Under the pieces are notes generated by a model. It was not told the DNA's origin, ran no database searches, and saw only the letters and a list, made by a program, of their open reading frames with translations. A program made the translations under genes and the position numbers. A DNA stretch of 64,000 nt, taken from the NCBI GenBank assembly GCA_028753945.1, contig JAPNXP010000007.1, forward strand, positions 4,898,001-4,962,000. The letters run 5' to 3'. Shown here one piece after another: positions 10,553-60,570 of this stretch. The number at the start of each line of letters is the position of its first letter. Position 1 is the first letter of the stretch. This DNA comes from Hexactinellida sp. DTS-2022. Taxonomy: Eukaryota > Porifera > Hexactinellida.

Positions 10553-11138
10553 CAGGCCCAGATTAAGGCACGTTCAGAATGTTCAGCTGAACAGGGCCGC
10601 CCACCAAACGGGGGCGGCCCACCACCAGAGTGGGACCGCAATGCCTAACATTAATTGGTCTCACTGCATCTTTTATTGAGATATAGAAGAGCTTATTGAC
10701 ATTATAGTAATCTTAACTATCTTAAGAGTATATAGTAACAGAGGCGTAACTAGGCCTGCATGAAGGTGCGGCACTGGTAGATTATGGTTGCGGCATTTCC
10801 GCATTATAGTATTATACTAGTGGGCATTCTTGTAGGCACAATTTTTTTGGGTGCGGCCTGTGCCCCAAGTGCCGCTGGCTACGCCTCTGTATAGTAGTGT
10901 CGATTAGTTGTCGATTAACGTGTCATCTAATTTGTTGCTAAAATGCGTTCAATGGTCAATGTGTATTTGATATTGATTTCATTTACAGTAATTGTGTTTG
11001 TTATTCCTACGCAGGAACACTCTTTTATAATAAAAAAGGAATTATGTACAAATTAATTTGCTTTGCATAAACAAAAAAACGAGGGGGCCGCCCACCAGCT
11101 GTCCGAACGAGGCCGGCCACCAGCTTAATCCGGCCCTG
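10553..11138. mobile_element. hAT-type MITE inside the Helitron ORF
   Basis: The ends caggcccagattaag and (complement) cttaatccggccctg are flanked by an 8-bp target duplication, gacgcaat (10545-10552) and gacacaat (11139-11146). Removing it restores continuity between LYQDA and MKIVRKF in the Helitron protein. Internal GGGCGGCCCACCA-type words recur near both ends. Confidence 0.85.
10739..10889. mobile_element. Nested 151-bp hAT-type MITE
   Basis: CAGAGGCGTAACTAG and its complement CTGGCTACGCCTCTG form the ends, flanked by tatagtaa (10731-10738) and tatagtag (10890-10897). It lies inside the 10553-11138 MITE, so three insertion layers are visible: Helitron, then hAT MITE, then this one. Confidence 0.85.
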
Positions 11139-11402
11139 GACACAATGAAAATTGTGCGGAAATTTTGTAAACCAGATTTATTTATTACATTCACATGCAA
11201 TCCGTATTGGGACGAAATAACGTGTAGCCTTCTGCTTAACCAGAAAGCTACTGGTCGCCCCGATTTAGTTGTACGGGTATTTAGACAAAAGTTAAGGGAA
11301 TTACTAAATAACATTCTTAAGAAACATGTTCTTGGTAATCCCGTTGCACACGTCTACACAATTGAATTTCAGAAGCGTGGTCTTCCGCATGCCCATATAT
11401 TG

Positions 11403-11590
11403 GTTATCTTAGCTGACACTAGGACCACAGGTCCGGGGGGACATCTGACCCTAGGGCCACTGGTCCGTGAGACAGCTGTCCCTAGTGCAATAGGTCCGGG
11501 GGGACATTATTTGGGGGGGACCGCTGGCACTATGACACCAGACCAGTGGCGTGGTCCTGGGGATCCTAGGACCCCCCAATCTGTCGCATC
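11403..11590. mobile_element. GGTCC-rich insertion truncating the Helitron ORF
   Basis: The Helitron frame is lost after ILVILAD and replaced by DNA with repeated ggtccggggggaca words and loosely inverted ends (actaggaccacaggtcc; ggatcctaggacc). Probably another small element; boundaries are approximate. Confidence 0.4.
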
Positions 11591-11965
11591 AATTTTATAT
11601 TGTAAATTGAATTACATATAGCTGTTGAATAAACATAAAAATAGGCCAAGCGATAGCCTACTAGGTTTATGGAAATGTTAATTAGTGGGTTTTTTTGTTG
11701 TTAATGGGTAGAGATTACTGCAATAGTTTCCCGTACCGCAAATCGGTCTTTTGTTAAAGTAATTAAAGTAATCGGTCTTTTGTTAAAGTAGCAGATTACA
11801 AAGTGCAAGTGGATATGTCAACTTGGGTGATTAATGTGTCCCAATATGGAGCTGACTGATTGGTTACCAAGGTGGTAGACTGGTAGTATGGAATGTTTGG
11901 TGTTAAAGTGGTTGAATTGTGTTGTGTGGTGAAATCTTTACGTGTTTTGGAGTTTATATCTCAGG
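11591..11965. other. Non-coding stretch
   Basis: AT-rich, with a short duplicated phrase aatcggtcttttgttaaagta (about 11741-11790). No gene seen. Confidence 0.5.
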
Positions 11966-21070: not shown

Positions 21071-21725
21071 CGTATATTACCCTATTGAACACAATTATAT
21101 ACACCCGGACAAAAATAAATAAAATATTTGGTCTTGGTTAAAATTTGGTGCGGCTGGACGTAATATTACTGAAATATTTGGTCATACAGGAACAGGACCA
21201 AAAACAATACGGACCGAATATTCCGTGGCAGTCCCCCTAAATACACTTTGATAACTTTGATCTAGTGTGCATTCACCAGCAGGTAAAGAGTCACAAATAT
21301 ATATGGTATAATGATATTGTTTATTGAATTACAAAATATATATCTGAGGGGTTATTTTAAATTCCAATCATTGTAGCATCGTACAGTAGCAAATTGCAAA
21401 ATTTGAAGTAAAAAGAAATATGGATACTATATTCACATGTAGAGTTCCGCATGCTGTCACAAAATCTTGAGGTATTTTATATTTAACAATGTGTACGGTG
21501 TACCTATTATACGATAAAGGACTTTTACACCACGCCAAGATCACTAATGTTTTCATTTCAGGTTTAACCAAAGTTGAATAACAATGTTTAAACGTACATT
21601 GCCTTGATTATTACCACTATCATGTTTCATTTCCACTACATTTAAATGATAAGCTTATTAAAATATCAGTATGTTGCACTATAAGTATACATGGTATATG
21701 TATTGTTGATAAAGAGAATAATGTA

Positions 21726-23096
21726 ATGGATCTTAGTGCAAAAGTTTGTACCGAGTTAAAGGTTTCTGATGGAACTCAAGATACTCTATTTGTCAATGTT
21801 AATGGTATTTGTAGGGGATGGAGGGTAGCTTTGTTAATTGAGAAATTGAATGGTAAAGTAGAAGAGACACTTCTCCTTTGCAAGTTATGTGGTGGGTTGT
21901 TAAGAGAAGCAAGTTTGTTTGAGTTTGATGGGGGACAAGAACCTAGATGCTCTATGTGCATACCAGAGAGTATAACCAAACAACCAGCTCAGTTGACAAT
22001 GAATCGTGAAGCAGTCAATGACAAAATAGTAGGTTCTAATGTAATGTGATAATAATATTAATTTTATTAACTGAATATCTAATTATAGATTATATGCCCG
22101 TGTCAAGGGAGAGGATGTAAGTGGACAGGTCAATTGTGTAATGCAGAACATCACTTAGAAGAATGTACCTACATACTTGTGTTGTGCCCTCTAAAATGTG
22201 TGTACTCAAAAGGCGAAAAGAAAGGGGAAATGGTGAAAGTAGAGAGGAGATATTTGGCTAAACACCAGAGAGATTCCTGTCCGATGAGAGAACTGGAGTG
22301 TGACTTTTGTGGCGACAAAACAGTGAAGGCCAAAGAAATGAATTCTCACTTAGAGGAATATGAATATTTCCAGATTCCTTGTCCCAATAATTGTGGGTTT
22401 GATTTCGAGTATAGTGGAAAAGTAACAAGAAAATGTGTTAGCACTCATCTAGCTAACGAGTGCCCACTTCAACGAATATATTGTCCTTACTTGGAGTACG
22501 GTTGTGTGGAGAGAATGGAAAGAAGACACATGGATCAGCATGAAATAGATTTTACCCACAAACATTTCAAACTTACGATGAATGGAATGAAGAAAATAAT
22601 TGAAAAACAAGCTGAAAAGATTGAGAAATTGGAAACAGCAATTGCAACTTTGATACCAGCTTGGAAATTTGTGTGGAAGATAACTAGAATCAATGAAAAG
22701 ATTCGTAATAAAGAGAGTAGTTTCAGTGATCCATTCAATGTGGGTTTATACAAGTGTCAAGTTCAGATTAATTGGAAAACTGATAAAGGACATCTTGGCT
22801 GTTATATATGTGTTATGAAAGGTGATTTTGACGACAAATTGTTGTGGCCTTTCAAATATAGATATAAAATTGTTCTATTCAATGTAAATGATAATAGAAA
22901 CAATCGTATATGGTCAGAAGACATAACAAAATCTCAGCTCGAAAAATACCCATCTAGCTTCAAGAAACCAACACAACTGAGGAATAAAGGATTCGGAATT
23001 GCTTCATTTATTACACAGTCAATGATTCTTAAAGATAATTATTGCAGGGATGATTGCATATCATTGGGTATTGAAGTTGAGTGGCTGACTTGGTAA
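21726..23096 (+). CDS. TRAF-type zinc-finger/MATH protein, copy B
   Basis: Exons 21726-22040 and 22089-23096 encode 440 residues, the same architecture as copy A: RING-like Cys pairs, TRAF-type zinc fingers, coiled coil and MATH domain. Three differences matter. An 18-nt insertion near the start adds six residues. A 1-nt deletion just before the donor (ggttctaat against ggttctaaat) would break the frame with copy A's GTGATA donor, but a GTAATG donor right after AAT restores phase 0. And the zinc-ligand Cys of HLEDCEY in copy A is Tyr here (HLEEYEY, residue 196), so one finger is probably weakened. Most other residues are identical. Function is inferred from domains only. Confidence 0.85.
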
Positions 23097-23240
23097 TATC
23101 AAGAACACTATGTACTTTTCATTATATACTATTTTCTTGATTAATTAATTCTACCATAATGTAATTATTGTGTGTATAATCTATTATATAAATAGTATAA
23201 ATAGACAGACATCTTACGCGTATAGTTTTGATATTAGTTA

Positions 23241-27420: not shown

Positions 27421-28773
27421 AAACCTGTGACTTCTAAATTACACGTACTCAATTCAGTTTGCTGCTATTTGGTTCCAAGTATGTCAACTAATTAATTAAT
27501 TAATTAATGTTATTTACTAACCCAGGATGACTGCATAGTGAATTGTTTGATTATTATTAATTCGCTGCATCATCAATATGTCATTAGTTATGCAGAAGAT
27601 ATAGGTACTATAGTAAATAGTTGAATTACTTGATAGTAATATTATGCATGCTTATGCGATTGAAGTAAGCTAATACATCACGAATATTTTTTGTATAAGA
27701 TTGTTGAATATAAGTATACAATATTCCCGTTCTTGGCTGATCTACAACACTAAATAGCTATGTTCGGGGTGTGCGGGGAATGTGATGCCCCCACTTTTCG
27801 CTTATTCGTCGGTATTTCCTGGAGCGTCGGTAAAACGCTTTGATTAGGATAAAATTTGGAATGAAGATTCCTTTTAGAACTAATTAATCATAATTATCTT
27901 TTAATTAATTTAATACGTCGATTTACACATTTATATTTACGCATTTATAATCATGTTCTTTAGTGTCGTCGTTGCAGTTAACGTTCGTAGCGTACGCAGT
28001 TGCTGTCCTGTATAATCCCTATTTCCGGTGAACGAAATGGTTAAATATGCATATGTTCTATCTGTTTCCATGTATATGTCAATGCATGTTCGCATACCTG
28101 CCAAATGCCAACCTATTTGAGTTTATCCCTGTACAGGGCTCTAATTTTTCCATGTACATTTTCCAAAATCCCTGTAACCCCGGGGGTTTTTTCAGTGGCG
28201 TTTCTAGGGGGATGCGACCACCTAATCCTCCTTGCTTTTTAGTTTGCACCCCATTTCCCCCCTCCCACTTTTTTAAGATATACTGCATAGGCGCCAAGTT
28301 TGGGGTTTTGGGGATGAATTTGTCATACTTGCAAACTATCCAGGGATGTAGGGACTTCATCGAAAATTAGGGATATTTTTGAAATTATATTTGCTTATAT
28401 TCCCGTCACTAAATAAGCATTGTATTACAAATAGTAGTGATATTCTTGAAAAAATAATTATCTCAAATAGTGTTAATAAATATTTATTTGCTACTTTGGG
28501 GATCGGCGACAAAGGTGGGCACAGTTAATCAAAAAGTTAACTTCGTTAATTGTTAATCCGTTAACCAAAAAGTTAACTCCGTTAACCGTTAATCCGTTAA
28601 TTCGTTAAAAATGTAACGGAAGTTAACGATAAACTGCTAACGTTAATCTATATTATGCAAACAACAACAAAATCTGCTATTTTGCTCTAAAACACTTAAA
28701 AGTGCTAAAACTATAAAATGAGCCTTTGTTGGGTCTTTCTAAGCTCAAATTTCTGTTAAACAACATTGATATA

Positions 28774-28949
28774 CAGTTGACTCCGCTTTATAGAATTACC
28801 TCGGACCAGGTGATGTTGACCCAATTGCGCAGAGAGATTATTTAACCGAAATTTCAAACTGTATTTCCGTCCCATAAATTCTGTGATATTTTGATCCCAT
28901 TATGCAGTTAAATCTATCAACCGGTGGCACCATTAAGCGGTTTCGAGTG
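28774..28949. mobile_element. pogo-type MITE nested in the hAT element
   Basis: cagttgactccgctttatag ... attaagcggtttcgagtg with TA on both sides; same family as 23241-23319. The mirror copy is at about 39015-39189. Confidence 0.7.
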
Positions 28950-28954
28950 TATAC

Positions 28955-29250
28955 CAGTGCACGGAAAACTGAAATTTTGATGGTGGGTTATTAAGCTACC
29001 ACCTCACTTTTTCTGGAAGCTAAATAATAAACAACAACCGGTTTAACAAACCACTGATGGCTTAACAAACTTCTGATGCCGTAAACAATACCTATATTAA
29101 TAACAAATAATACAACGAAAATATAATATACACAAAGTTAAATAATCCACAATTTATGGTTACTTAAGTCGCCAAAGGCAAAATAAGGTGGTTTTAGAAA
29201 TATTATTTTTGGTGGCTATGCTACCAAACCATCTTATCTGTCGTACACTG
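28955..29250. mobile_element. Nested hAT-like MITE with GGTGG words
   Basis: Ends cagtgcacgg and cgtacactg; flanks gtgtatac and ctgtataa are a possible decayed 8-bp duplication. Interior words ggtggtttt and ggtggctatgctaccaaacc recur at 47867-48073. Confidence 0.6.
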
Positions 29251-29531
29251 CTGTATAATTGTATAATAGTTTAAGAAACAGCATTAAACTCAATTTTTAA
29301 AAATTCACTTCAGCATTGAGGAGCCTCGCCCAATATAATATAGAGGAGCTTTAACGGACTTGTAACGGAAGTTAATTAGAGCGTTAACGATGTTTAAAGT
29401 TAACTTAAAAGTTAAATCGTTAATAAAATTTAACTTCGTTAATTAACGATTATTAACGGATTAACGGTTTAGTGCCCAGCTTTGATCGGCGATGCTACTA
29501 TTCGAGATATACGGTAATAATATGCATGTTC

Positions 29532-29850
29532 TCGATGAAAAGCGAGCGAGCTAAGGTTTATAGACATTCGAGCCTCAGAAATATGTCCAGGGGAATGAGT
29601 AAATTTCCAGGGAATTCTTGCCATGAGTCCAGGGGTTAGCCTGGGCGAAGTTAGAACATATAATTTTAACTTGAGAATTTAAACTAGGGGGGGGGGGGGC
29701 GACATCCCCTCCTATGGGCCATGGCGCCCCGCATGTCTGCAACAATAGCCCAAATAATGGGCTCCAGTTTCTCCTCTACATTTCCCAAAATCCTGGACAC
29801 CCAAAATTTATATTTTTAAATACGAATTTAAAAAAGTTCGAGTGAATTGT
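29532..29850. other. Left-arm-only segment
   Basis: Present between atgcatg and tgaattgtggcaac in the left arm, absent at the matching right-arm site (about 38443). It contains a 13-G run and the gggaattcttgccatgagtc phrase related to 3030. Either an insertion here or a deletion in the other arm. Confidence 0.7.
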
Positions 29851-30148
29851 GGCAACTTTGAACCAAATTATCAGGAAAATGAGGATGGATTAAAAAAATC
29901 GTGAAGAGCTACTAGCTCCAAAAAACTTTTCTGAAGCTAATGATTCGGATAATTTTTTTGTTTATTGCTTGTATTTTCCAATGGAACGAAAGAAGCTAGA
30001 AGTCCCGTTAAAATTTTTACAAATCGAAATTAAAATTCGGCCCACGAGATGCACATTAATCAACATTCATACACCTATCCTGAAAATCTCAGAGCTCTAG
30101 CACTTATAGTCCAGCCAGGGTAGTTTACAAGGAGAAAAAATAAAAATC

Positions 30149-30255
30149 TAAAATTACACCTGTGCCGACATCATGTTCTTTTGGAGGCACTATCAATCCA
30201 CCACCACAAAGATGGTGCCTCCAAGGAACATGCTGTCGGCACAGGTGTAATTTTA
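30149..30255. mobile_element. Palindromic MITE (GTGCCGACA family), copy 2, left arm
   Basis: Inverted arms ctaaaattacacctgtgcc...; the mirror copy is 38030-38137. Same family as 15300-15416. Confidence 0.8.
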
Positions 30256-30677
30256 TAGTTTTTGTAACTAATACTTATCGGAAACAAAAGGCATTTAAAC
30301 TGTAATTATAGTTGAGATGAATAGAATTTTGAAAGATTAAACTAGAACCATAACATAATCTGAGTTTATTGATATAAGTAGTAGTCTTGGTTAGCTTAAC
30401 TTTGCTTTACTTAAAACTTTACAACTTTCAAAAAACTAACTACAGGTAAGTTGGCTCTATGCCTAGGTGTCTATCCGACGCCTTATTAAAAAATAAAGTA
30501 CGTAGATTAGTTAATTAACCACTTCATTTAAAATGCAATGCTCTCTCTATTTTGTTAGATGACCTACCCGGCTTGTCAAACTAAGTCCACTTCTGTTTGA
30601 GGCTGCTTCCTCGTCAAATTAGACACGATCTGAATCAAATTTGTCCAAATCGTTTAGTGCAAACAAAACATGTACTA

Positions 30678-30832
30678 CAGTCGAAATCGCTTTTTTTGCC
30701 TCCCCGGTTATTTTGCCTCCTTGCTTCTCCTTGTTTCTCCATAAACTCATCGCACTGTATAATGTCAAATACGGGTTTTTTTCCTCTTTTTCCATGTATT
30801 TAGGGGAGCAAAAAAAAAAACGATTTCGACTG
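30678..30832. mobile_element. pogo-type MITE (CAGTCGAAATCG family), left arm
   Basis: cagtcgaaatcgc ... cgatttcgactg with TA duplications (30676-30677, 30833-30834). Its mirror is 37454-37610. The identity between the palindrome arms breaks down inside this element. A third copy is at 51280-51466. Confidence 0.8.
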
Positions 30833-31510
30833 TAGTATACTATCTAAATACTTGTCCGAGGCTTATTTTTGTATATTTATGATTTTCCTACTTTTATACG
30901 AAAAATACTTCGGGCTAGCGAAGGTTTCATTCAGAGGCGGCGCCAGGATTTTCAGGTAGGGGAGCTCAGTGGGCCAGGGGGATTTTAGGGGGGGGCAGCC
31001 CGGGCCACACTGTACAACAATGTTATTCTAGGGAGGGGAAGCCTTAAAAGAGGGGGCCATGCCCCTCCCCTGGCTCTGCCACTGGTTTCATTAGCAGGGT
31101 TCAGATTAGTGAGGATGTACTGTACTTAGTTATCGATGACTGATGGTCGATGGTCGTAGGGAGCGAAGTAGTTGACCCAGTCGGCATAGTCTAGTGTATA
31201 CTGTTAGCATAGTTTACAAATTGGCTGTTGAGTATTTCATATCTAGGCTCTCTGAGAATGTAGGGTCGCTACAAAAAGTACTAACTGATGACATGAGTAC
31301 ATACAATAAAAACAGAATTCGAAATGTAATCCTAGAATATGGAATCTCTGATTGAGCCCACTATAACAACAGGTAAACATAACTATAAGTGTCAAAAAAA
31401 ATTACCAAACAGTATAATTGGCGCTGATATTGGAATAATGCTCAATAACTCTAGTTGACAGATGTGTTCAAGGAAATTCAATAGAGACAAACAGCAAATA
31501 TTTCCCTATA

Positions 31511-31695
31511 CAGGTAAACCTCCCAAAAGCGGCACCCATCGGGAGAATGATTTTGTGCCGCTTCTCGGAGGTTGCCGCTTTGGGAGGTTGCTCGTAAGGT
31601 TAAACTCCCATAGCGGCACCCATCTGGAGAATGATTTTGTGCCGCTTCTCGGAGGTTGCCGCTACTCGGAGGTGCCGCTTTGGGAGGTTTACCTG
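31511..31695. mobile_element. 185-bp pogo-type MITE (CAGGTAAACCTCC family), left arm
   Basis: Ends caggtaaacctccc/gggaggtttacctg, TA on each side, interior made of gcggcaacctccgaga-like words. The mirror copy 36591-36775 is identical in the stretches compared; a third copy of exactly the same length is at 51976-52160. Confidence 0.85.
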
Positions 31696-31802
31696 TATTC
31701 ATATTTTTATTATATTTGAATAAATCATAATATAAATAAGCAGTATAATTAAATCACTATACGTATCTCCTACCAGTAAAAATACCTCCATCATTACAGA
31801 CA

Positions 31803-32936
31803 TTACTGTTTTGATAGAGACGCTTGTAAAGTAGAATCATCATCAGAACATATTCCTTTATATCTGAATTTTATTTCAGAACTAAATTTGATCATTTTTC
31901 GTGCTGAATTAATCCAAATTCCAATCGTGATGACAATTAAAGGAAGAACTGCTATTACTACTCCAATAAATCCGAACGCATTAATGAATGCATTAACAAA
32001 ACTGAAACTCTTGAGTACCTTTGAAATATCTTCCGCTTTATGCAGTGGTAAGGTAAAGAAATCAAGTTGAAAGTAGCAATTCTCAAAGAATAGTAAAGAA
32101 AACACTCCACATTCAATGCAACTGAGGTACGTGGCTATTAGAATAATGATAAATCCAATGGAAATAAAATAAGTATTGTATGAGAAATATCGGTACCTTC
32201 CCATTTCTCTTTCGTTTGATCCATGTTGTGCGAGACATTCGATTGCGTTTTGAAGGAGAGCCTGTTTGAATCTCTTAATCTGAATTACAAACTTAATAAT
32301 GCAAAAAGTAATGGTTGGGAAAAATAAAACTCTCCATAAGTTGATAACGAATGTAAAATGAGATGATAGGACTAATAACACACTTATCATGGATAGTATT
32401 AATAGAAATCGTTTCAGATTGATGTCTCCAGGTAGGCTTTTAGACTTCTTCATCCTATGTAGCAGATAATTTATCAAACTGATGCACAATGCAATAACGA
32501 ATAGTTCAGAAATATCACCTAATGTACTGAGAGTATTTAGAACTGGATCTGAACATTGATTTAGTTTAAAATTTATCAAGTTGGAGCTGTTAACAATGGC
32601 ACAACCTTCCAATCTTGTCCTATAATTGTTCTTTCCAACAATAATGGAGCCATAAAACTTAAATATTGACTGTATGGTATAACAAGTAGCTCCTGATACC
32701 TCAGTGGAGTTAATCATAATCAAAGTAGCATACTTACGAATTTCAGTCTCATAATGGTAATAATATTGTGCTGCCGTATAATTTGAATCTGGATCCGTTA
32801 TAATTCTAGCTGCAGCTCTTTTGTACCTCCTATATAGATAAATTCTCCGAGTGAATACTACTATCCAGTAACCACTTATCGAAACAAAGATGATGTACAG
32901 TATTACTATTATTATAATGAATATCAGACTGAACAT
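31803..32936 (-). CDS. Multi-pass membrane protein of unknown family, left-arm copy
   Basis: One exon, 377 residues, ATG at 32936, TAA at 31803. Strongly hydrophobic segments lie at about residues 2-27, 134-158, 173-197, 200-218, 251-285 and 316-345, with a weaker one near 66-95, so six or seven membrane passes. A long region after the first segment holds Asn-x-Ser/Thr sites (NYT, NST) and several Cys, as in an extracellular domain. The C-terminal tail is Ser-rich (SDDDSTLQASLSKQ). The pattern resembles an orphan seven-pass receptor, but I recognise no GPCR signature such as DRY or NPxxY. The deduced protein is identical to the 35350-36483 copy. Upstream DNA contains a duplicated ~310-bp segment (33007-33312 and 33684-33993). 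Not a shadow ORF: it is long, intact in both arms and protein-like in composition. Confidence 0.75.
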   Translation of the reverse strand: MFSLIFIIIIVILYIIFVSISGYWIVVFTRRIYLYRRYKRAAARIITDPDSNYTAAQYYYHYETEIRKYATLIMINSTEVSGATCYTIQSIFKFYGSIIVGKNNYRTRLEGCAIVNSSNLINFKLNQCSDPVLNTLSTLGDISELFVIALCISLINYLLHRMKKSKSLPGDINLKRFLLILSMISVLLVLSSHFTFVINLWRVLFFPTITFCIIKFVIQIKRFKQALLQNAIECLAQHGSNEREMGRYRYFSYNTYFISIGFIIILIATYLSCIECGVFSLLFFENCYFQLDFFTLPLHKAEDISKVLKSFSFVNAFINAFGFIGVVIAVLPLIVITIGIWINSARKMIKFSSEIKFRYKGICSDDDSTLQASLSKQ

Positions 32937-33006
32937 TTCTCACAAACAAGAGTTAATTTGCTAATATTATTCAAATTTCATATTCTTATAGATGTTGATT
33001 CGATTT

Positions 33007-33993
33007 GAAGGAGAATTACTAATGCAGAAGTGTAAATCATCAATTACACTTATGCAATATCAATCTGATTAAGGGACAGGATTTAATACTTTCTGTATAT
33101 TAACAATTGCAAGCATTCTGGAGATTATTCTTCCAATAATACTGTAAGCAAATCAGAGCCAAGAATGTAGTAATAACTCATACATCATTTTGAGAATTTT
33201 TAATGGGTTGTTACCTCCTCATTAATATTTTGATTTGAGTTCTCAATAAGGCAATTTACAAGAAACTTTTAAGCAAATTTATATCTCTGATATACTGGTT
33301 TCCAGCCCTATATTAAATGCAAACTATTGTTTGTGTGGATGTTTGTCCGTAATTGACTGAAGGGACCATACTACCTAGAGAGTTGAAATTTGGTATATAG
33401 GAGTAGTTTATCATAGGAACATGGGTCTATTGGTTTTCCAAGCGAAATATTGTGAGTATGATATCACAGGGTAACCTTTTCCTCAATAACTTTTGCAAAT
33501 TTGGCTCGATTAGTCTAAATTTTATATGAAAATAGACAACACATAATGGAACACCTTTGTGAAAATTATCAATTTTACGCAATTATTTAACGATAGTTAT
33601 TAGTTAAAATGTGTCCTATTAATATGGGTGATTTGATTTGTTTGGTTAACAAGAATGCACTAGAGTAGTTATTGTTTCGAAATGAAGGAGAATGAATTAC
33701 TAATGCAGAATTGTAAATCACCAATTACACTTGTGTAATATCAAACAGAATTGGGGACAGGATTTCATGCTTTATGTATAATATTACTTGTAAGCATTCT
33801 GGAGATTATTCTGCCAATAATAATACTGTAAGCAAATCAGAGTCTAGAATGTAGTAATAACCCATGCAATATTTTGAGATTTTGAATGGGGTTTTTATCT
33901 CATCAATTTTTGATTTGAGTTATCAATAAGGCAATTTACAACCAACTTTTATAAGCAAATTTATATATCTGATATAGTGTTTTCCAGCCCTTT
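33007..33993. repeat. Direct repeat pair upstream of the membrane-protein gene, left arm
   Basis: 33007-33312 and 33684-33993 are about 90 percent alike (gaaggagaat...attactaatgcagaa; caataaggcaatttacaa; ttccagccct). The 370-bp spacer begins tattaaatgcaaactattgt and looks Helitron-like. The pair is mirrored at 34293-34602 and 34974-35279. Confidence 0.75.
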
Positions 33994-34049
33994 GTTTCAT
34001 ACTTCCTCTTTTAAAGCCGTATAAAACAAATACTTACTATTTCAACTAG

Positions 34050-34240
34050 TTCTGTCACGAAATTCGATCCGTGTTGTTTCGGTCCAGCCGGATCAAATTT
34101 AACCAGAATCTAATATTTAAATAAGCCAAATCTCAATGGCTTATTTAAATATTAGATTCTGGTTAAATTTGATTAGATTCTGGTTAAATTTGATCCGGCT
34201 GGACCGAAACAACACGGATCGAATTTCGTGACAGAACTAG
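34050..34240. mobile_element. Palindromic element at the centre of the 13.4-kb palindrome
   Basis: CTGTCACGAAATTCGATCCG and its complement CGGATCGAATTTCGTGACAG face each other around an 8-nt loop (34129-34136). aactagtt, itself palindromic, lies at both outer edges. The right side has an extra 21-nt duplication (gattagattctggttaaattt, about 34171-34191). Related TIR-like DNA lies at the inner edges of the TRAF inverted duplication. Confidence 0.65.
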
Positions 34241-35349
34241 TTGAAATAGTAAGTATTTGTTTTATACGGCTTTAAAAGAGGAAGTATGAAACAAAGGGCT
34301 GGAAAACACTATATCAGATATATAAATTTGCTTATAAAAGTTGGTTGTAAATTGCCTTATTGATAACTCAAATCAAAAATTGATGAGATAAAAACCCCAT
34401 TCAAAATCTCAAAATATTGCATGGGTTATTACTACATTCTAGACTCTGATTTGCTTACAGTATTATTATTGGCAGAATAATCTCCAGAATGCTTACAAGT
34501 AATATTATACATAAAGCATGAAATCCTGTCCCCAATTCTGTTTGATATTACACAAGTGTAATTGGTGATTTACAATTCTGCATTAGTAATTCATTCTCCT
34601 TCATTTCGAAACAATAACTACTCTAGTGCATTCTTGTTAACCAAACAAATCAAATCACCCATATTAATAGGACACATTTTAACTAATAACTATCGTTAAA
34701 TAATTGCGTAAAATTGATAATTTTCACAAAGGTGTTCCATTATGTGTTGTCTATTTTCATATAAAATTTAGACTAATCGAGCCAAATTTGCAAAAGTTAT
34801 TGAGGAAAAGGTTACCCTGTGATATCATACTCACAATATTTCGCTTGGAAAACCAATAGACCCATGTTCCTATGATAAACTACTCCTATATACCAAATTT
34901 CAACTCTCTAGGTAGTATGGTCCCTTCAGTCAATTACGGACAAACATCCACACAAACAATAGTTTGCATTTAATATAGGGCTGGAAACCAGTATATCAGA
35001 GATATAAATTTGCTTAAAAGTTTCTTGTAAATTGCCTTATTGAGAACTCAAATCAAAATATTAATGAGGAGGTAACAACCCATTAAAAATTCTCAAAATG
35101 ATGTATGAGTTATTACTACATTCTTGGCTCTGATTTGCTTACAGTATTATTGGAAGAATAATCTCCAGAATGCTTGCAATTGTTAATATACAGAAAGTAT
35201 TAAATCCTGTCCCTTAATCAGATTGATATTGCATAAGTGTAATTGATGATTTACACTTCTGCATTAGTAATTCTCCTTCAAATCGAATCAACATCTATAA
35301 GAATATGAAATTTGAATAATATTAGCAAATTAACTCTTGTTTGTGAGAA

Positions 35350-36483
35350 ATGTTCAGTCTGATATTCATTATAATAATAGTAATACTGTACATCATCTTT
35401 GTTTCGATAAGTGGTTACTGGATAGTAGTATTCACTCGGAGAATTTATCTATATAGGAGGTACAAAAGAGCTGCAGCTAGAATTATAACGGATCCAGATT
35501 CAAATTATACGGCAGCACAATATTATTACCATTATGAGACTGAAATTCGTAAGTATGCTACTTTGATTATGATTAACTCCACTGAGGTATCAGGAGCTAC
35601 TTGTTATACCATACAGTCAATATTTAAGTTTTATGGCTCCATTATTGTTGGAAAGAACAATTATAGGACAAGATTGGAAGGTTGTGCCATTGTTAACAGC
35701 TCCAACTTGATAAATTTTAAACTAAATCAATGTTCAGATCCAGTTCTAAATACTCTCAGTACATTAGGTGATATTTCTGAACTATTCGTTATTGCATTGT
35801 GCATCAGTTTGATAAATTATCTGCTACATAGGATGAAGAAGTCTAAAAGCCTACCTGGAGACATCAATCTGAAACGATTTCTATTAATACTATCCATGAT
35901 AAGTGTGTTATTAGTCCTATCATCTCATTTTACATTCGTTATCAACTTATGGAGAGTTTTATTTTTCCCAACCATTACTTTTTGCATTATTAAGTTTGTA
36001 ATTCAGATTAAGAGATTCAAACAGGCTCTCCTTCAAAACGCAATCGAATGTCTCGCACAACATGGATCAAACGAAAGAGAAATGGGAAGGTACCGATATT
36101 TCTCATACAATACTTATTTTATTTCCATTGGATTTATCATTATTCTAATAGCCACGTACCTCAGTTGCATTGAATGTGGAGTGTTTTCTTTACTATTCTT
36201 TGAGAATTGCTACTTTCAACTTGATTTCTTTACCTTACCACTGCATAAAGCGGAAGATATTTCAAAGGTACTCAAGAGTTTCAGTTTTGTTAATGCATTC
36301 ATTAATGCGTTCGGATTTATTGGAGTAGTAATAGCAGTTCTTCCTTTAATTGTCATCACGATTGGAATTTGGATTAATTCAGCACGAAAAATGATCAAAT
36401 TTAGTTCTGAAATAAAATTCAGATATAAAGGAATATGTTCTGATGATGATTCTACTTTACAAGCGTCTCTATCAAAACAGTAA
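35350..36483 (+). CDS. Multi-pass membrane protein of unknown family, right-arm copy
   Basis: Mirror image of the gene at 31803-32936, encoding an identical 377-residue protein in one exon (ATG 35350, TAA 36481-36483). The same six to seven hydrophobic segments are present. The two copies are transcribed away from the palindrome centre, so each has its promoter side toward the middle, about 1.2 kb from the axis. Identity of both coding sequence and flanks suggests gene conversion or very recent duplication of the core rather than selection on the protein alone. Function unknown. Confidence 0.75.
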   Translation: MFSLIFIIIIVILYIIFVSISGYWIVVFTRRIYLYRRYKRAAARIITDPDSNYTAAQYYYHYETEIRKYATLIMINSTEVSGATCYTIQSIFKFYGSIIVGKNNYRTRLEGCAIVNSSNLINFKLNQCSDPVLNTLSTLGDISELFVIALCISLINYLLHRMKKSKSLPGDINLKRFLLILSMISVLLVLSSHFTFVINLWRVLFFPTITFCIIKFVIQIKRFKQALLQNAIECLAQHGSNEREMGRYRYFSYNTYFISIGFIIILIATYLSCIECGVFSLLFFENCYFQLDFFTLPLHKAEDISKVLKSFSFVNAFINAFGFIGVVIAVLPLIVITIGIWINSARKMIKFSSEIKFRYKGICSDDDSTLQASLSKQ

Positions 36484-36590
36484 TGTCTGTAATGATGGAG
36501 GTATTTTTACTGGTAGGAGATACGTATAGTGATTTAATTATACTGCTTATTTATATTATGATTTATTCAAATATAATAAAAATATGAATA

Positions 36591-36775
36591 CAGGTAAACC
36601 TCCCAAAGCGGCACCTCCGAGTAGCGGCAACCTCCGAGAAGCGGCACAAAATCATTCTCCAGATGGGTGCCGCTATGGGAGTTTAACCTTACGAGCAACC
36701 TCCCAAAGCGGCAACCTCCGAGAAGCGGCACAAAATCATTCTCCCGATGGGTGCCGCTTTTGGGAGGTTTACCTG
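36591..36775. mobile_element. 185-bp pogo-type MITE, right arm
   Basis: Mirror of 31511-31695; TA on both sides. Confidence 0.85.
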
Positions 36776-37453
36776 TATAGGGAAATATTTGCTGTTTGTC
36801 TCTATTGAATTTCCTTGAACACATCTGTCAACTAGAGTTATTGAGCATTATTCCAATATCAGCGCCAATTATACTGTTTGGTAATTTTTTTTGACACTTA
36901 TAGTTATGTTTACCTGTTGTTATAGTGGGCTCAATCAGAGATTCCATATTCTAGGATTACATTTCGAATTCTGTTTTTATTGTATGTACTCATGTCATCA
37001 GTTAGTACTTTTTGTAGCGACCCTACATTCTCAGAGAGCCTAGATATGAAATACTCAACAGCCAATTTGTAAACTATGCTAACAGTATACACTAGACTAT
37101 GCCGACTGGGTCAACTACTTCGCTCCCTACGACCATCGACCATCAGTCATCGATAACTAAGTACAGTACATCCTCACTAATCTGAACCCTGCTAATGAAA
37201 CCAGTGGCAGAGCCAGGGGAGGGGCATGGCCCCCTCTTTTAAGGCTTCCCCTCCCTAGAATAACATTGTTGTACAGTGTGGCCCGGGCTGCCCCCCCCTA
37301 AAATCCCCCTGGCCCACTGAGCTCCCCTACCTGAAAATCCTGGCGCCGCCTCTGAATGAAACCTTCGCTAGCCCGAAGTATTTTTCGTATAAAAGTAGGA
37401 AAATCATAAATATACAAAAATAAGCCTCGGACAAGTATTTAGATAGTATACTA

Positions 37454-37610
37454 CAGTCGAAATCGTTTTTTTTTTTTGCTCCCCTAAATACATGGAAAAA
37501 GAGGCAAAAAACCCCGTATTTGACATTATACAGTGCGATGAGGTTATGAAGAAACAAGGAGAAGCAAGGAGGCAAAATAACCGGGGAGGCAAAAAAAGCG
37601 ATTTCGACTG
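37454..37610. mobile_element. pogo-type MITE (CAGTCGAAATCG), right arm
   Basis: Mirror of 30678-30832 with several differences and 2 bp longer; arm divergence starts here. Confidence 0.8.
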
Positions 37611-38029
37611 TAGTACATGTTTTGTTTGCACTAAACGATTTGGACAAATTTGGTTCAGAATATAGTATCTAATTTGACGAGGAAGCAGCCTCAAACAGAA
37701 GTCGACTTAGTTTGACAAGGCGGGTTAGGTCATCTAACAAAATAGAGAGAGCATTGCATTTTAAATGAAGTTGTTAACTAATCTACTTTATTTTTCAATA
37801 AGGCGTCGGATAGACACCTAGGCATAGAGCCAACTTACCTGTAGTTAGTTTTTTGAAAGTTGTAAAGTTTTAAGTAAAGCAAAGTTAAGCTAACCAAGAC
37901 TACTACTTATATCAATAAACTCAGATTATGTTATGGTTCTAGTTTAATCTTTCAAAATTCTATTCATCTCAACTATAATTACAGTTTAAATGCCTTTTGT
38001 TTCCGATAAGTATTAGTTACAAAAACTAT

Positions 38030-38137
38030 AAAATTACACCTGTGCCGACAGCATGTTCCTTGGAGGCACCATCTTTGTGGTGGTGGATTGATAGTGCCTC
38101 CAAAAGAACATGATGTCGGCACAGGTGTAATTTTAGA
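38030..38137. mobile_element. Palindromic MITE (GTGCCGACA family), right arm
   Basis: Mirror of 30149-30255. Confidence 0.8.
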
Positions 38138-38486
38138 TTTTTATTTTTTCTCCTTGTCAACTACCCTGGCTGGACTAGAAGTGCTAGAGCTCTGAGATTT
38201 TCAGGATAGGTGTGTGATTGTTGATTAATGTGCATCTCGTGGCCCGAATTTTTAATTTCGATTTGGTAAAATTTTAACGGGACTTCTAGCTTCTTTCGTT
38301 CCATAAGAAAATACAAGCAATAAACTAAAATATTATTCGAATCATTAGCTTCAGAAAAGTTTTTTGGAGCTAGTAGCTCTTCACGATTTTTTAAATTCGT
38401 CCTAATTTTCCTGATAATTTAGTTCAAAGTTGCCACAATTCACATGCATATTATTACCGTATATCTCGAATAGTAGCATCGCCGAT

Positions 38487-39452
38487 CAAAGCTGGGCACT
38501 AAACCGTTAATCCGTTAATAATCGTTAATTAACGAAGTTAAATTTTATTAACGATTTAACTTTTAAGTTAACTTTAAACATCGTTAACGCTCTAATTAAC
38601 TTCCGTTACAAGTCCGTTAAAGCTCCTCTATATTGGGCGAGGCTCCTCAATGCTGAAGTGAATTTTTAAAAATTGAGTTTAATGCTGTTTCTTAAACTAT
38701 TATACAATTATACAGCAGTGCACGACAGATTAGATGGTTTGGTAGCATAGCCACCAAAAATATTTCTAAAACCACCTTATTTTGCCTTTGGCGACTTAAC
38801 TAACCATAAATTGTGGATTATTTAACTTTGTGTATATTATATTTTCGTTTTATTATTTGTTATTAATATAGGTATTGTTTACGGCATCAGAAGTTTGTTA
38901 AGCCATCAGTGGTTTGTTAAACCGGTTGTTGTTTATTATTTAGCTTCCAGAAAAAGTGAGGTGGTAGCTTAATAACCCACCATCAAAATTTCAGTTTGCC
39001 GTGCACTGGTATATACTCGAAACCGCTTAATGGTGCCACCGGTTGATAGATTTAACTGCATAATGGGATCAAAATATCACAGAATTTATGGGACGGAAAT
39101 ACAGTTTGAAATTTCGGTTAAATAAGCTCTCTGCGCAATCGGGTCAACATAACCTGGTCCGAGGTAATTCTATAAAGCGGAGTCAACTGTATATCAATGT
39201 TGTTTAACAGAAATTTGAGCTTAAAAAGACCCAACAAAGGCTCATTTTATAGTTTTAGCACTTTTAAGTGTTTTAGAGCAAAATAGCAGATTTTGTTGTT
39301 GTTTGCATAATATAGATTAACGTTAGCGGTTTATCGTTAACTTCCGTTACATTTTTAACTAATTAACGGATTAACGGTTAACGGAGTTAACTTTTTTGTT
39401 AACGGATTAACGATTAACAAAGTTAACTTTTTATTAACTGTGTCCACCTTTG
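38487..39452. mobile_element. hAT-type element of GTTAACGG words, right-arm copy
   Basis: Mirror of 28510-29484, flanked by tcgccgat (38479-38486, 39453-39460), the complement of the left-arm duplication. The shared target site shows this insertion came before the palindrome formed. Confidence 0.85.
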
Positions 39453-39649
39453 TCGCCGATCCCCAAAGTAGCAAATAAATATTTATTAACACTATTTGAG
39501 ATAATTATTTTTTCAAGAATATCACTACTATTTGTAATACAATGCTTATTTAGTGACGGGAATATAAGCAAATATAATTTCAAAAAAATTCCTGGATTTT
39601 CGATGAAGTCCCTATATCCCTGGATAGTTTGCAAGTATGACAAATTCAT

Positions 39650-40140
39650 CGTAGCTCCATTGCTTTCAGATAAATTCTGACAGATCGAAAAGCTATCCCC
39701 TGAAAAATTGGTTTTCCCCCAGTTCGAAAAACCTGGCGCCGTGCATGGTTGCAGATTGCAAAATGTCGGGGCTTATTGACACAAATGTGTCACATTGTGT
39801 TGGATGGCTTGATTTAGTCAGTTTAGTATACTATATCTCATAGGCGTCAAGTTTTGGAACTTATAATCAAAGATGGGGAGGGCCCACTTGGGGGGTCTGG
39901 GGGGGGGGCCACTGGGAGGTTTGCTAAATATTTCCAGATTTGTTTCTTCAGAAACAAAATCTGGATATATTGAGTAAACAAACGTGATTCTCACCCTCTA
40001 TCATCCCTTGGTCGATCAAAAGGACCAGTTTCATACAAAAATTAAATCCACCGAAAGGTCCGGGAGGTCGCTCCCAGTGACCCACAGCCCCCCAATCAGC
40101 AATATGGGGGGGCGATCAACAATATGGGGGCCAGCCCCCC
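39650..40140. other. Right-arm-only segment
   Basis: DNA between acaaattcatc and aaccccaaacttggcgcc has no counterpart in the left arm (near 28312). It contains G runs and a second caggcgtcaagttt-like phrase, so it may be a G-run MITE retained or inserted only in this arm. Confidence 0.65.
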
Positions 40141-53741: not shown

Positions 53742-55588
53742 CTGGTCGTTGAAATCCCAAAATGGGCCATACCTAGAAAAATTCATACAATGCGTATTTT
53801 AGTATCATTAGAAGCGGAATTTTTCGTAGAATAACATATCCAAAATCCGCTAAAATCCGTTTTGGGGAAAACTTTTTACACGGGTGGCAGTGTCGGCCAT
53901 TTCATAGTAAATCGCCGACATTTTCGTAACTAACTTTCTCAAATCAAATCTAATCAACTTATAATCACCATATTTGTACTCAGCGTAAAATTTCCAGCAA
54001 TTTGATATATCACATGACAACATTTGGAGGAACTCCACTAGTATAAGTATACACATATCGAGACTCAGGGTTGTAAATCAAATCAAATATTTCAAATATT
54101 TGATTTGATTTGATTTGATTTAAAAGAATTTTGAGTCGCTAATTATTTGATTTGATTTGATTTGAAATTATTTTAATTCTCAAATGATTTGATTTGATTT
54201 GATTTGAAAATATTTGAATTCTCAAATGATTTGATTTGATTTGATTTGAAATAATTTCAAATCATTTTCAAATAATTTTTCAAATCATTTGCAGATCATT
54301 TTCAAAATTTGAATGCGATTTAATAGTGATTCGGAATTGATTTAAAAGTGATTTGAAAATGATTTGAAATTCAAATCATTTCAAATCATTTTCAAATCAT
54401 TTTTCAAATCATTTTCAAATCATTTTCAAATCACTTTTCAAATCATTTTCAAATCATTTGCAGATCATTTCAAATCATTTTCTATTCTTATTCAAATCAT
54501 TTCCGGATCCATTTCAAATATATAAGATCATTTTCAAAATTTGAATGCGATTTAATGGTGATTCGGAATTGATTTAAAAGTGATTTGAAAATGATTTGAA
54601 TTTCAAATCATTTCAAATCATTTTTCAAATCATTTTCAAATCATTTTTCAAATCATTTTCAAATCATTTTCAAATCATTTTTCAAATCATTTTCAAATCA
54701 TTTGCAGATCATTTAAATAATATTCTTTAAATCATTTTCAAATCGTTTCCAAATCGCTTTTAATATAATTTCACTTCATTTTCAATTCAATTTCAAATAT
54801 ACAAGATTATTTTCAAAATTTCTATACGTTTTGACAGTGATTCGTAAATGATTTGAAAGTTTCAAATATTTCAAATATTTGATTTGATTTGATTTGAAAT
54901 TATTTGAAATTTCAAATATTTGATTTGATTTGATTTGAAATGATTTGAAATCTCAAATGATTTGAAATGATTTGATTTGAAATAATTTTAAATCTAAAAT
55001 GATTTGATTTGATTTGATTTGAGAAAAAAAAAATGTTTATTTACAACCCTGATATCGACCCTCTAAAATGGGATTTGACGAGATTTATCTGAAAATCTTC
55101 AATTTTAGGTTTATCTCGAATAATCTCGACAAATCCCATTTTAGAGGGTCGATATGTGTTTAATTATACTAGTGGAGTTGAACGCGTGGCCACTAGATTG
55201 GATAGGCCAACAATTTGAGAATGGAATGTTCGCACATTCCTGACATATATTTGATACATTCCCGCGTTGCTATGGAATATACTTATACTAGTGGAGTTCC
55301 TCCAAATTGTGTCATGTGATATATCAAATTGCTGGAAATTTTACGCTGAGTACTAATATGGTGATTATAAGTTGATTAGATTTGATTTGAGAAAGTTAGT
55401 TACGAAAATGTCGGCGATTTACTATGAAATGGCCGACACTGCCACGGTGCCACCCGTGTAAAAAGTTTTCCCCAAAACGGATTTTAGCGGATTTTGGATA
55501 TGTTATTCTACGAAAAATTCCGCTTCTAATGATACTAAAATACGCTTTGTATGAATTTTTTCTAGGTTCAACCTTCCAACGACCAGAC
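53742..55588. mobile_element. Fold-back element with ~300-bp arms
   Basis: 53742-54050 is the reverse complement of about 55290-55588 (cggaatttttcgtagaataa; gtgtcggccatttcatag). The middle holds the satellite-type hAT insert, a separate ~107-bp perfect-looking palindrome (55052-55158, cgaccctctaaaatgggatt) and a ggaatgttcgcacattcc hairpin (about 55243). No coding capacity. Confidence 0.8.
54066..55051 (+). mobile_element. hAT-type element built of a TGATTTGAAA-like satellite, copy 1
   Basis: CAGGGTTGTAAAT ... ATTTACAACCCTG ends enclose about 960 bp of 5- to 11-bp words (tttcaaatca, tgatttgaaaa, gatttgattt). It is reverse-complementary to the 57101-58053 copy, including the longer unit with gaatgcgatttaat. 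Flanks tcgagact and atatcgac do not give a clean duplication. Confidence 0.75.
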
Positions 55589-57100: not shown

Positions 57101-58053
57101 CAGGGTTGTAAATAAATCATTTTTTTTTCTCAAATCAAATCAAATCAAATCATTTTAGATTTAAAATTATTTCAAATCAAATCATTTCAAATCATTTGAG
57201 ATTTCAAATCATTTCAAATCAAATCAAATCAAATATTTGAAATATTTGAAACTTTCAAATCATTTACGAATCACTGTCAAAACGTATAGAAATTTTGAAA
57301 ATAATCTTGTATATTTGAAATTGAATTGAAAATGAAGTGAAATTATATTAAAAGCGATTTGGAAACGATTTGAAAATGATTTAAAGAATATTATTTTAAA
57401 TGATCTGCAAATGATTTGAAAATGATTTGAAAAGTGATTTGAAAATGATTTGAAAATGATTTGAAAAATGATTTGAAAATGATTTGAAATGATTTGAATT
57501 TCAAATCATTTTCAAATCACTTTTAAATCAATTCCGAATCACTATTAAATCGCATTCAAATTTTGAAAATGATCTTATATATTTGAAATGGATCCGGAAA
57601 TGATTTGAATAAGAATAGAAAATGATTTGAAATGATCTGCAAATGATTTGAAAATGATTTGAAAAGTGATTTGAAAATGATTTGAAAATGATTTGAAAAA
57701 TGATTTGAAAATGATTTGAAATGATTTGAATTTCAAATCATTTTCAAATCACTTTTAAATCAATTCCGAATCACCATTAAATCGCATTCAAATTTTGAAA
57801 ATGATCTTATATATTTGAAATGATCTGCAAATGATTTGAAAAATGATTTGAAAATGATTTGAAATTATTTCAAATCAAATCAAATCAAATCATTTGAGAA
57901 TTCAAATATTTTCAAATCAAATCAAATCAAATCATTTGAGAATTAAAATAATTTCAAATCAAATCAAATCAAATAATTAGCGACTCAAAATTCTTTTAAA
58001 TCAAATCAAATCAAATCAAATATTTGAAATATTTGATTTGATTTACAACCCTG
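57101..58053 (-). mobile_element. hAT-type element built of a TGATTTGAAA-like satellite, copy 2
   Basis: CAGGGTTGTAAATAAATC ... GATTTACAACCCTG ends, perfect 8-bp duplication gccttgat (57093-57100, 58054-58061). The interior is inverted relative to copy 1. The clean target duplication proves these satellite blocks move as transposons. Confidence 0.9.
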
Positions 58054-58950: not shown

Positions 58951-59029
58951 AATAAAATGTTGAAATTTAAGGCTATGTCACTGGACTATTTGCCATCATA
59001 TATTCTGAGATTTGTTGGGTGTTGTGAAT

Positions 59030-59345
59030 GAGCATCACAATGACCTTTAGGAGTAGTGTCCTTGGGAAAGGCACTAGGTGGCAGTACGGGCAGACTATGA
59101 CTACGGGTCTTAGTATTCACATGCCGGCAGTACGACTGGTAACCTACACTAGGTTGGCGCGAGTCGCAATAAGAGTGGTCGAGGGTTACCCTCCTGATGA
59201 GTCCCTGCGATGGGACGAAACCACTGACATATCATCCCTATGAGTTGGGAGTCTATGGACGATTAGTCTCCAAGTCGTGGCCTCATCTCATAACATTAGT
59301 ACCCCTTAACCCCCCCTAGTTAAATAAGCTGACCTGACCTGACTT
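59030..59345 (+). mobile_element. SINE-like unit with hammerhead ribozyme and (TGACC) tail
   Basis: A GC-rich unit of about 310 bp in AT-rich DNA. It contains tgtccttgggaaaggcac (about 59056-59073), which from memory resembles a segment common in animal SINEs, then the ribozyme, and ends in ctgacctgacctgac, a simple-repeat tail as SINEs have. No tRNA-type A and B boxes could be assigned with confidence. The ORF at 59028-59243 is incidental. Confidence 0.5.
59174..59225 (+). ncRNA. Hammerhead self-cleaving ribozyme (type III layout)
   Basis: All core parts are present in order. The helix III 5' strand is AGTGG plus U16.1, with the cleavage nucleotide C17 at 59180 (GUC). Helix I is GAGGG-TTA-CCCTC (59181-59193). 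Then the core CTGATGA (59194-59200), helix II GTCCC-TGCGAT-GGGAC (59201-59216), core GAAA (59217-59220), and the helix III 3' strand CCACT (59221-59225) pairing with AGTGG. Every helix is perfectly complementary. Predicted cleavage falls between 59180 and 59181. Helix III is the open one, so the topology is type III. Whether it acts in the SINE-like RNA is inference. Confidence 0.9.
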
Positions 59346-59361
59346 TTGAGTGACCTGAACC

Positions 59362-60431
59362 GTGACCTTCGATATAAAAGGCCTGAGTGCTGGTTTGAAC
59401 CATGGATCACTTAAAGTACATTGAAAAATGGAGAATTGATCTTTATTCCAATAATTAGCAATGATAGAGATGAAAAGTGTATTATAACTACGTATATAGG
59501 AATATGGTATTCAGGTATACATAGCACCCTCCAGAATTGTGATATGTCATCATCTGATTCTGATGACGTTATGGTAATTTTGGTTGCGAATTATCTTGTT
59601 TTTCTAGCATACTTTTAACATAGTTAAACGCGTTCTAAATGTTCTAAATTGGAACATGGTTCACCCAGAAGTAGTAGAATAAAATATATCGAAATTATAA
59701 ATGGAATGTTACACATTCCTCGGTTGCCATGGAAAATGTATATTTCCTAAAATGTGCCATAACTCAAAAACTATGAATGTTATGTGAACTAGGCTGGTAC
59801 TGATCTGTCCGGAATAGGTAACTTCCTATTCATCGATAATACATTTTCTATGCCTAACTTCAATAATTTTTGAGATAGTGAGTCATTACCTAATAATGAA
59901 TTAAGTGTTAATTATCTCATTATCTCAAAATTATTGAAGTTGTACATAAAAAATGTATTATCGATGAATAGGAAGTTACCTATTCCGGACAGATCAGTAC
60001 CAGCCTAGTTCACATAACATTCATAGTTTTTGAGTTATGGCACATTTTAGGAAATATACATTTTCCATGGCAACCGAGGAATGTGTAACATTCCATTTAT
60101 AATTTCGATATATTTTATTCTACTACTTCTGGGTGAACCATGTTCCAATTTAGAACATTTAGAACGCGTTTAACTATGTTAAAAGTATGCTAGAAAAACA
60201 AGATAATTCGCAACCAAAATTACCATAACGTCATCAGATGATGATATATCACAATTCTGGAGAGTGCTATGTATACCTGGATACCATATTCCTATATAGT
60301 ATAATACACTTTTCAGCTCTATCATTGCTAATTATTGGAATAAAGATCAATTCTCCATTTTTCAATGCACTTTAAATAATCCATGGTACACAAATTTTCG
60401 CTTAGAACTCAGGCCTTTTATATCGAAGGTA
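59362..60431. mobile_element. Fold-back element with ~530-bp arms
   Basis: 59362-59895 is the reverse complement of about 59915-60431 (accttcgatataaaaggcc to the centre). The arms contain ggaatgttacacattcc (about 59703 and 60079). It is flanked on both sides by TGACC pentamers in the same orientation. The ORF at 59421-59618 lies in the arm and shows no domain. Confidence 0.85.
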
Positions 60432-60443
60432 TGAACCTATTTT

Positions 60444-60570
60444 CTGAACGCCTTGACCTGACCTGACCTGACCTGACCTGAACCTAATCTTGCATGATTT
60501 TGACCTGACCTGACCTGACCTGACCTGAACCTAATCTTGCATGATTTTGACCTGACCTGACCTGAACTTT
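60444..60570. repeat. (TGACC)n array with a ~53-bp higher-order unit
   Basis: Five TGACC units plus tgaacctaatcttgcatgat form a unit repeated about 2.3 times. Confidence 0.85.

Follow-up and report, generated by a model that had tools for sequence, protein, structure and literature searches.

The window analysed here is a stretch of 64,000 nucleotides from the sponge Hexactinellida sp. DTS-2022 (GCA_028753945.1, contig JAPNXP010000007.1, positions 4,898,001 to 4,962,000, forward strand). It contains a hammerhead ribozyme motif embedded in a short repeated unit, with the following features:

59020..59295, + strand: full extent of the repeated unit, interpreted as a solo LTR, 276 bp, TGTTGTGAATGAG...CTCATCTCATAACA (16-copy alignment)
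59173..59226, + strand: type III hammerhead ribozyme motif, RF00008 (Rfam, over the gathering score; three-helix fold)
59174..59180, + strand: 5' strand of helix III, AGTGGT (59174-59179), then core C (59180) (sequence, Rfam alignment)
59178-59180, + strand: core GTC (sequence)
59180/59181, + strand: predicted cleavage site (hammerhead model)
59181..59193, + strand: helix I, GAGGG-TTA-CCCTC (sequence, Rfam alignment, fold)
59194..59200, + strand: core CTGATGA (sequence, copy alignment)
59201..59216, + strand: helix II, GTCCC-TGCGAT-GGGAC (sequence, fold; both-side changes in three of five pairs)
59217..59225, + strand: core GAAA (59217-59220), the last A of which opens the 3' strand of helix III, ACCACT (59220-59225) (sequence, copies)
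59296..59307, + strand: TTAGTACCCCTT, first hairpin arm as in the palindromic copy L078, the rest missing here (copy alignment)

The motif at 59173-59226 matches Hammerhead_3 (RF00008) on the + strand over the entire model (1-54 of 54) with 61.1 bits against a cut-off of 48.5 (E = 3.6e-11), and it is the sole Rfam match over cut-off in the window; a lax threshold yields 32 matches, the others being of miRNA type plus one snoRNA. At minimum energy the 54 nucleotides fold into the three-helix hammerhead (z = -2.39; equalled or exceeded in stability by 6 of 200 shuffles), with helix III open, the layout of type III. By sequence, a complete hammerhead of type III with an intact core occupies 59174-59225 (+), as the initial annotation of this DNA had proposed, and the hammerhead model predicts cleavage at the same position, 59180/59181, as that annotation.

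A genome-wide covariance-model search, suggested in the initial annotation, returned at least 68 matches to RF00008 in the sponge's own genome (112.4 Mb, 18 contigs), 64 of them over the cut-off; the figure is a minimum, for scoring covered 68 of the 12319 first-look candidates and every one of those scored matched. The exact pattern GGTC-N13-CTGATGAG-N8-20-GAAAC has 234 matches in the genome, 117 per strand, whereas its reversed control has none. A helix II of the TCCT type is present in 60 copies and one of the TTCC type in 36. Together, these counts place the hammerhead beyond chance. Type I hammerheads numbered zero in this genome by a search that also found zero in control genomes and is hence uninformative.

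The 103 copies from the fetched loci and the window reduce to 76 distinct 66-nt sequences in a gap-free alignment; as these were picked by their core pattern, the core is invariant by construction, but the stems are not. Pairing in the stems holds in 97.1% of cells among the 76 distinct copies. Both sides have changed at 5 of the 15 pairs, a count that is weak on its own because 45 of 500 shuffles also reach 5. Counted by cell, however, both-side stem changes number 45, against a shuffle mean of 8.9 and with no equal in 500 shuffles, and sliding the structure by one to three columns leaves 1-24 such cells compared with the 45 in true register. Helix II varies from C-G to U-A, chiefly at two pairs, and helix III among U-A, G-C and A-U. 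Thus, helices II and III covary among the distinct copies, which is the compensatory change that had been named as a check on the ribozyme.

A second set comprised the window copy and 15 of at least 47 loci with similarity to the whole unit, chosen without use of the core. Among these 16 copies, bases other than the majority base occupy 36 of 830 cells in the ribozyme, compared with 255 of 2324 upstream and 118 of 1084 downstream (373 of 3408 for the rest of the unit). By eye, core bases are broken in three of the 16 copies (L071, L076 and L077), as would be expected of old insertions. The picture is thus one of a unit repeated many times, with covarying stems and a ribozyme less variable than its surroundings, and not the randomly decaying core in an unrepeated unit that the initial annotation had set against its own reading.

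The 16 copies share the ends TGTTGTGAATGAG... and ...CTCATCTCATA(A/T)CA, with a few copies truncated or altered at one end, and the sequence outside these ends varies from copy to copy. The termini of the window unit are TGTT...AACA, and loci of its family end at CATAACA, CATATCA or a near variant. A script based on end motifs recognised both ends in 41 of 86 rows (85 loci and the window), the remaining 45 being dropped for unrecognised ends or core; L060, L085, L086 and L094, each with one of two LTRs recognised, have their outer ends outside this 41-locus test. Exact target duplications flank 22 of the 41 loci, 18 of them of 4 bp and four of 5 bp, when lengths of 4, 5 and 6 bp are allowed; equality over 4 bp alone is found at 18 of 41. 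Mis-paired flanks gave 0.39 duplications on average and never more than 4 in 5000 trials, in a control that keeps the ends and tests the pairing only, the end motifs having been drawn from copies already inspected and the ends thus not chosen blind. The window copy is among the 19 loci without a target duplication; two of its four flank bases agree. The number of pattern copies and the duplications at 22 loci bear out the earlier view that the ribozyme belongs to a repeated mobile unit.

Relatives of the unit occur as pairs and arrays. L087, L088 and L093 consist of an LTR of 222-229 bp, an interior of about 150 bp and a second LTR of 222-223 bp, within 5-bp target duplications (ACATG, ACATG and GTTAC, respectively). 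A hammerhead lies inside each of two direct LTRs at these three loci and at L040 and L060, both of the window's class. L060 is an LTR-interior-LTR copy whose first LTR lacks its 3' end, with CTAC as a candidate duplication; like the other candidates, at L048, L085 and L086, it comes from a scan for TG..CA alone, which mixes true and chance pairs. L040 is a five-LTR array of 2184 bp in the order ++---, with CTAT bounding the whole. L085 belongs to a third LTR class and has two LTRs in tandem, with CTCC as a candidate duplication. At L092 the 5' LTR is a remnant without a ribozyme. Paired LTRs are 98.7% identical at L087, 97.3% at L093 and 99.7% at L040; those of L088 are unlike, with 85.6% identity over 181 bp. 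Ten LTRs of 325 bp, two of them from L040, are 96.6-99.7% identical to one another, and some of the copying is therefore recent. In two-LTR copies with both LTRs recognised, about 90-160 bp separate the LTRs, which leaves no room there for a gene such as a Penelope reverse transcriptase. The identical duplication ACATG at L087 and L088, at sites that look unrelated, points to a possible target preference.

tRNA primer sites were seen in the TGTAG class, and they are not those of tRNA-Met. The LTR end is followed directly by TTGGCGACGAAGGTGGGAT in L087, L088, L092 and L093. Here the primer site, TGGCGACGAAGGTGGGAT, corresponds to TGG and the reverse-complemented 3' end of a tRNA-Ser(GCT) gene of the same genome; the word CGACGAAGGTGGGA occurs at seven places in the genome, namely these four loci, the tRNA-Ser(GCT) gene itself (L090, by ARAGORN), L089 and L091. 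A second primer site, TTGGTGCATTGGCCGGGAA, is present in L094 and L096, and the word TGCATTGGCCGGGAA occurs at eight genome places, one of which is the exact 3' end of the tRNA gene at C1:8725891-8725961, presumably a tRNA-Gly gene. A purine tract precedes the second LTR in seven of the eight loci shown (AAGGTGAGAGGAG, CGAGAGGAG, AAAGGGAAGGTGA and AAGGGGGGTGA; one tract in the longer form GGTGAGAGGAG) and is weaker in L095. TG..CA ends, target duplications, LTR pairs, a primer site and purine tracts are, as sequence features, the marks of LTR retroelements.

L089 and L091 carry the 3' box ATTATTACATTGGCGACGAAGGTGGGAT, made up of LTR end and primer site as in the retrozyme loci, followed by an ATG within 15 bases. 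The frame at L089 (P0026) is open across the 98 residues read, and that at L091 is interrupted by stops. P0026 has no Pfam match of its own. It has 34 relatives, however, and of the 10 scanned, five match PNMA and/or Retrotrans_gag at E < 0.1, so the frame is regarded as gag-like; P0036, 65% identical to P0026, is the one relative over the PNMA cut-off. An Integrase_H2C2 match lies in an open frame of 179 aa 1.86 kb beyond L091 on the same strand; none was near L089 among the 150 matches listed of 885 candidates. No reverse transcriptase was seen at these two loci. The link to a gag-like partner is confined to the TGTAG class.

No tRNA primer site was seen in the window's class; in its copies with an interior, the LTR is followed by a hairpin. 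At L012, L040 and L046, this hairpin stands behind the LTR at the usual position of a tRNA primer site, before the interior starts. Its far arm repeats the LTR end in reverse-complemented form, CATAACA...TGTTATG in L040 and L046 and CATGACA...TGTCATG in L012, and LTR end and arm thus change together between these copies. The window copy diverges after the first arm, TTAGTACCCCTT, and a similar arm is present in L048, L070 and L082. This class is tied to LTR elements by its ends, by its target duplications, by direct LTR pairs and by the purine tract.

A whole or partial LTR in inverted orientation comes after a hairpin at three loci of the window's class (L048, L070 and L078) and at two of the third class (L025 and L086). 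The outer duplications of such inverted pairs are CGTA at L025 and, as candidates, ATAT at L086 and TGAA at L048; L095, of the TGTAG class, has the opposite order, with 5' ends inward, within the duplication GATTA. Inverted pairs are untypical of LTR elements and are frequent here by a crude count, in which several rows (for example, L029, L030, L053 and L083) are unrelated flanking repeats and which gives no class frequency. It is conceivable, if doubtful, that a second class of animal LTR retrozymes, including the window copy, primes itself on the fold-back hairpin without a tRNA and so yields LTR-hairpin-inverted-LTR palindromes. The 3' end of the LTR would pair with the downstream arm, and reverse transcription would be primed on the element's own hairpin, which would replace the tRNA site. 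Fold-back copying run to the end would produce palindromes, which integrase could insert, both outer ends being LTR ends. Multiplication of a retroelement with a ribozyme would then proceed through palindromes in addition to circles. A caution is that the window has other large palindromes, one of them of 8.6 kb, so that palindrome formation may be common throughout this genome or a product of its assembly.

The window unit is very probably the solo LTR of a small, non-autonomous animal LTR retrozyme with one type III hammerhead per LTR. The initial annotation had instead taken it for a SINE-like unit with a TGACC tail, which would be moved by a LINE. The unit is indeed short, repeated and non-coding, and TGACC repeats lie directly downstream of it in the window. 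However, the TGACCTGACC run beside the window copy is absent from all 15 fetched loci of its family, which end at the CATAACA-type termini described above, and the tail is not part of the unit. The TG..CA ends with exact target duplications of 4 or 5 bp, and the two-LTR relatives with a purine tract and, in one class, a tRNA primer site, also speak against a SINE; neither a shared 3' tail nor LINE-type insertion was found, and ARAGORN, consulted for a tRNA-derived SINE head, shows no tRNA within the window. This reading is contradicted by the alignment of the 15 similar copies and has hardly any probability left. The TGACC repeats themselves are local, at window positions 60453-60565 and about 59330-59345.

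It is also unlikely that the window's class is a MITE-like DNA element with terminal inverted repeats, mobilised by a transposase resembling an integrase, in which the ribozyme would be incidental. Such an element would account for the short inverted termini TGTT...AACA with 4-bp target duplications, for the inverted or palindromic pairs, some of which lie within target duplications (L025 and L095, with L086 as a candidate), and for the lack of a visible tRNA primer site in this class; further palindromes are common in the window as well. Against it, the same class contains copies with two direct LTRs around an interior and a purine tract immediately ahead of the second one (L040 and L060); a sister class bears the same ribozyme together with tRNA primer sites and a 3' box common to loci with gag-like sequence, and a motif that cuts RNA is of no obvious use to a DNA element. 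Another explanation, in which an infectious circular RNA of viroid or satellite type was the source of the ribozyme and LTRs then carried it as a passive passenger, is very improbable, although it concerns origin and is compatible with an LTR retrozyme. The motif agrees with the type III model of Rfam, RF00008, whose seed consists largely of plant satellite RNAs and viroids, and it forms a module of about 50 nt common to LTR classes that otherwise do not align at that site. On the other hand, one long exact hammerhead pattern had no matches in IMG/VR contigs, and compensatory stem changes are unexpected for passive passengers.

As the initial annotation suggested, the hammerhead likely processes the element RNA, perhaps into circles, and the following cycle is inferred. 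A two-LTR copy would be transcribed, and the ribozyme in each LTR would cut the transcript. Ribozymes on the same strand are spaced by 372 nt at L087, 380 at L088, 371 at L093, 385 at L060 and 238 at L085, and by 486 (twice) and 527 (once) at L040; these intervals would be the lengths of the unit RNA at the six loci. The predicted 372-nt unit RNA of L087 folds with z = -5.23, none of 100 shuffles being as stable; the window LTR, taken as 59012-59293 (8 nt early and 2 nt short), gives z = -0.42, a stability like that of its shuffles. Unit RNAs would end in a 5'-OH and a cyclic phosphate, and ligation would close them into circles. A circular-template model has been proposed for plant retrozymes (PMC4918200), and a circular template would fit the presence of solo LTRs, two-LTR copies, an LTR-LTR tandem and a five-LTR array. 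Reverse transcriptase and integrase would presumably be borrowed from a protein-coding LTR element of the same genome, for instance one of those that left remnants or copies at L089 and L091, and integration of the copied unit would make the 4- or 5-bp target duplication.

Hammerheads are known from cave-cricket satellite DNA. The sponge elements resemble plant LTR retrozymes, as described in the passages cited (PMC4918200), in having a type III hammerhead in each LTR (LTRs of about 220-330 bp here and 300-400 bp there), a short non-coding interior, a purine tract, solo LTRs, a primer site (in one class here), target duplications of 4 bp (at most sponge loci having any) and, in the sponge, a 3' box common to loci with gag-like sequence. 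They differ from them in their animal host, in primers that correspond to tRNA-Ser and a second tRNA and not to tRNA-Met, in the 5-bp duplications of the TGTAG class, in a predicted unit RNA of 238-486 nt (one of 527) versus about 700 nt, and in a hairpin class without a tRNA site and with palindromic insertions. With metazoan non-LTR retrozymes they have in common an animal host, units of a few hundred nucleotides delimited by hammerheads, and the occurrence of tandems; those elements, however, are described as having type I hammerheads and no LTR, primer site or purine tract (PMC7229834), whereas the sponge motif is of type III and its relatives have LTRs and a purine tract, and in one class a primer site too, so the sponge elements do not belong among them. 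Metazoan repeats are likewise reported to have neither primer site nor purine tract, with the exception of a tRNA in schistosomes (PMC4918200).

Type III hammerheads in animals or their RNA agents have been described from HDV-like RNAs of toad and termite and from dipteran genomes; these have longer helices and loop pseudoknots, with no LTR context reported in the parts of the source cited (PMC7936874), whereas the sponge motif is of the short Rfam type. TRIMs, for example those of bivalves, a find termed among the first in animals, are also tiny non-autonomous LTR elements, but no ribozyme is mentioned in the corresponding passages (PMC6934838). Complete LTR retrozymes are stated to be known only from dicots, the metazoan ones being non-LTR and of type I (PMC11722881). 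Animals typically have type I, and plants with their RNA agents type III (PMC7761336, PMC6155905), and among the many metazoan hammerheads catalogued, no sponge is named in the text searched (PMC3088659). The initial annotation had called a type III ribozyme in an animal SINE-like unit unusual, in agreement with published animal hammerheads, which are mostly of type I (PMC7229834, PMC7761336, PMC6155905). A type III or LTR retrozyme from an animal or sponge was not recognised in a literature search that was limited and thin on subscription papers. The sponge elements would thus be animal LTR retrozymes with type III hammerheads, a layout hitherto described, in the sources cited, from flowering plants. 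A plant-like architecture in an early-branching animal lineage would argue against a plant-only origin, or demand convergence or transfer. It would also provide an animal model for linking small circular RNAs made by ribozyme processing to one defined LTR element and one tRNA primer.

Contamination is argued against by the presence of copies on many multi-Mb contigs and by primer sites that fit the genome's own tRNA genes. A TRAF-like frame in the window has 25 protein matches, of which all 11 named ones are from Oopsacas minuta, a glass sponge, at 37-54% identity; three others reach 75-89%. These matches point to a glass sponge other than that species as the probable host. The TRAF-like gene is present as an inverted duplicate (window 18682-20353 and 21534-23239, 95% identical), the scanned copy having a zf-TRAF and a MATH domain, and a frame with a Helitron_like_N domain lies at 11058-11621 (E = 3.7e-34). 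The window also contains an 8.6-kb palindrome (29842-38443, 98.7% self-inverted) with outer arms at 28313-29529 and 38442-39650; both halves (28313-39650) encode a 377-aa frame, the scanned one without a Pfam match. An inverted pair of ATTTG-rich arrays (54066-54980 and 57130-58053) has an inner tandem period of 232 bp. Downstream of the ribozyme unit, 59365-60430 forms a self-inverted palindrome of 1.07 kb, and related sequence occurs in both orientations in L052.
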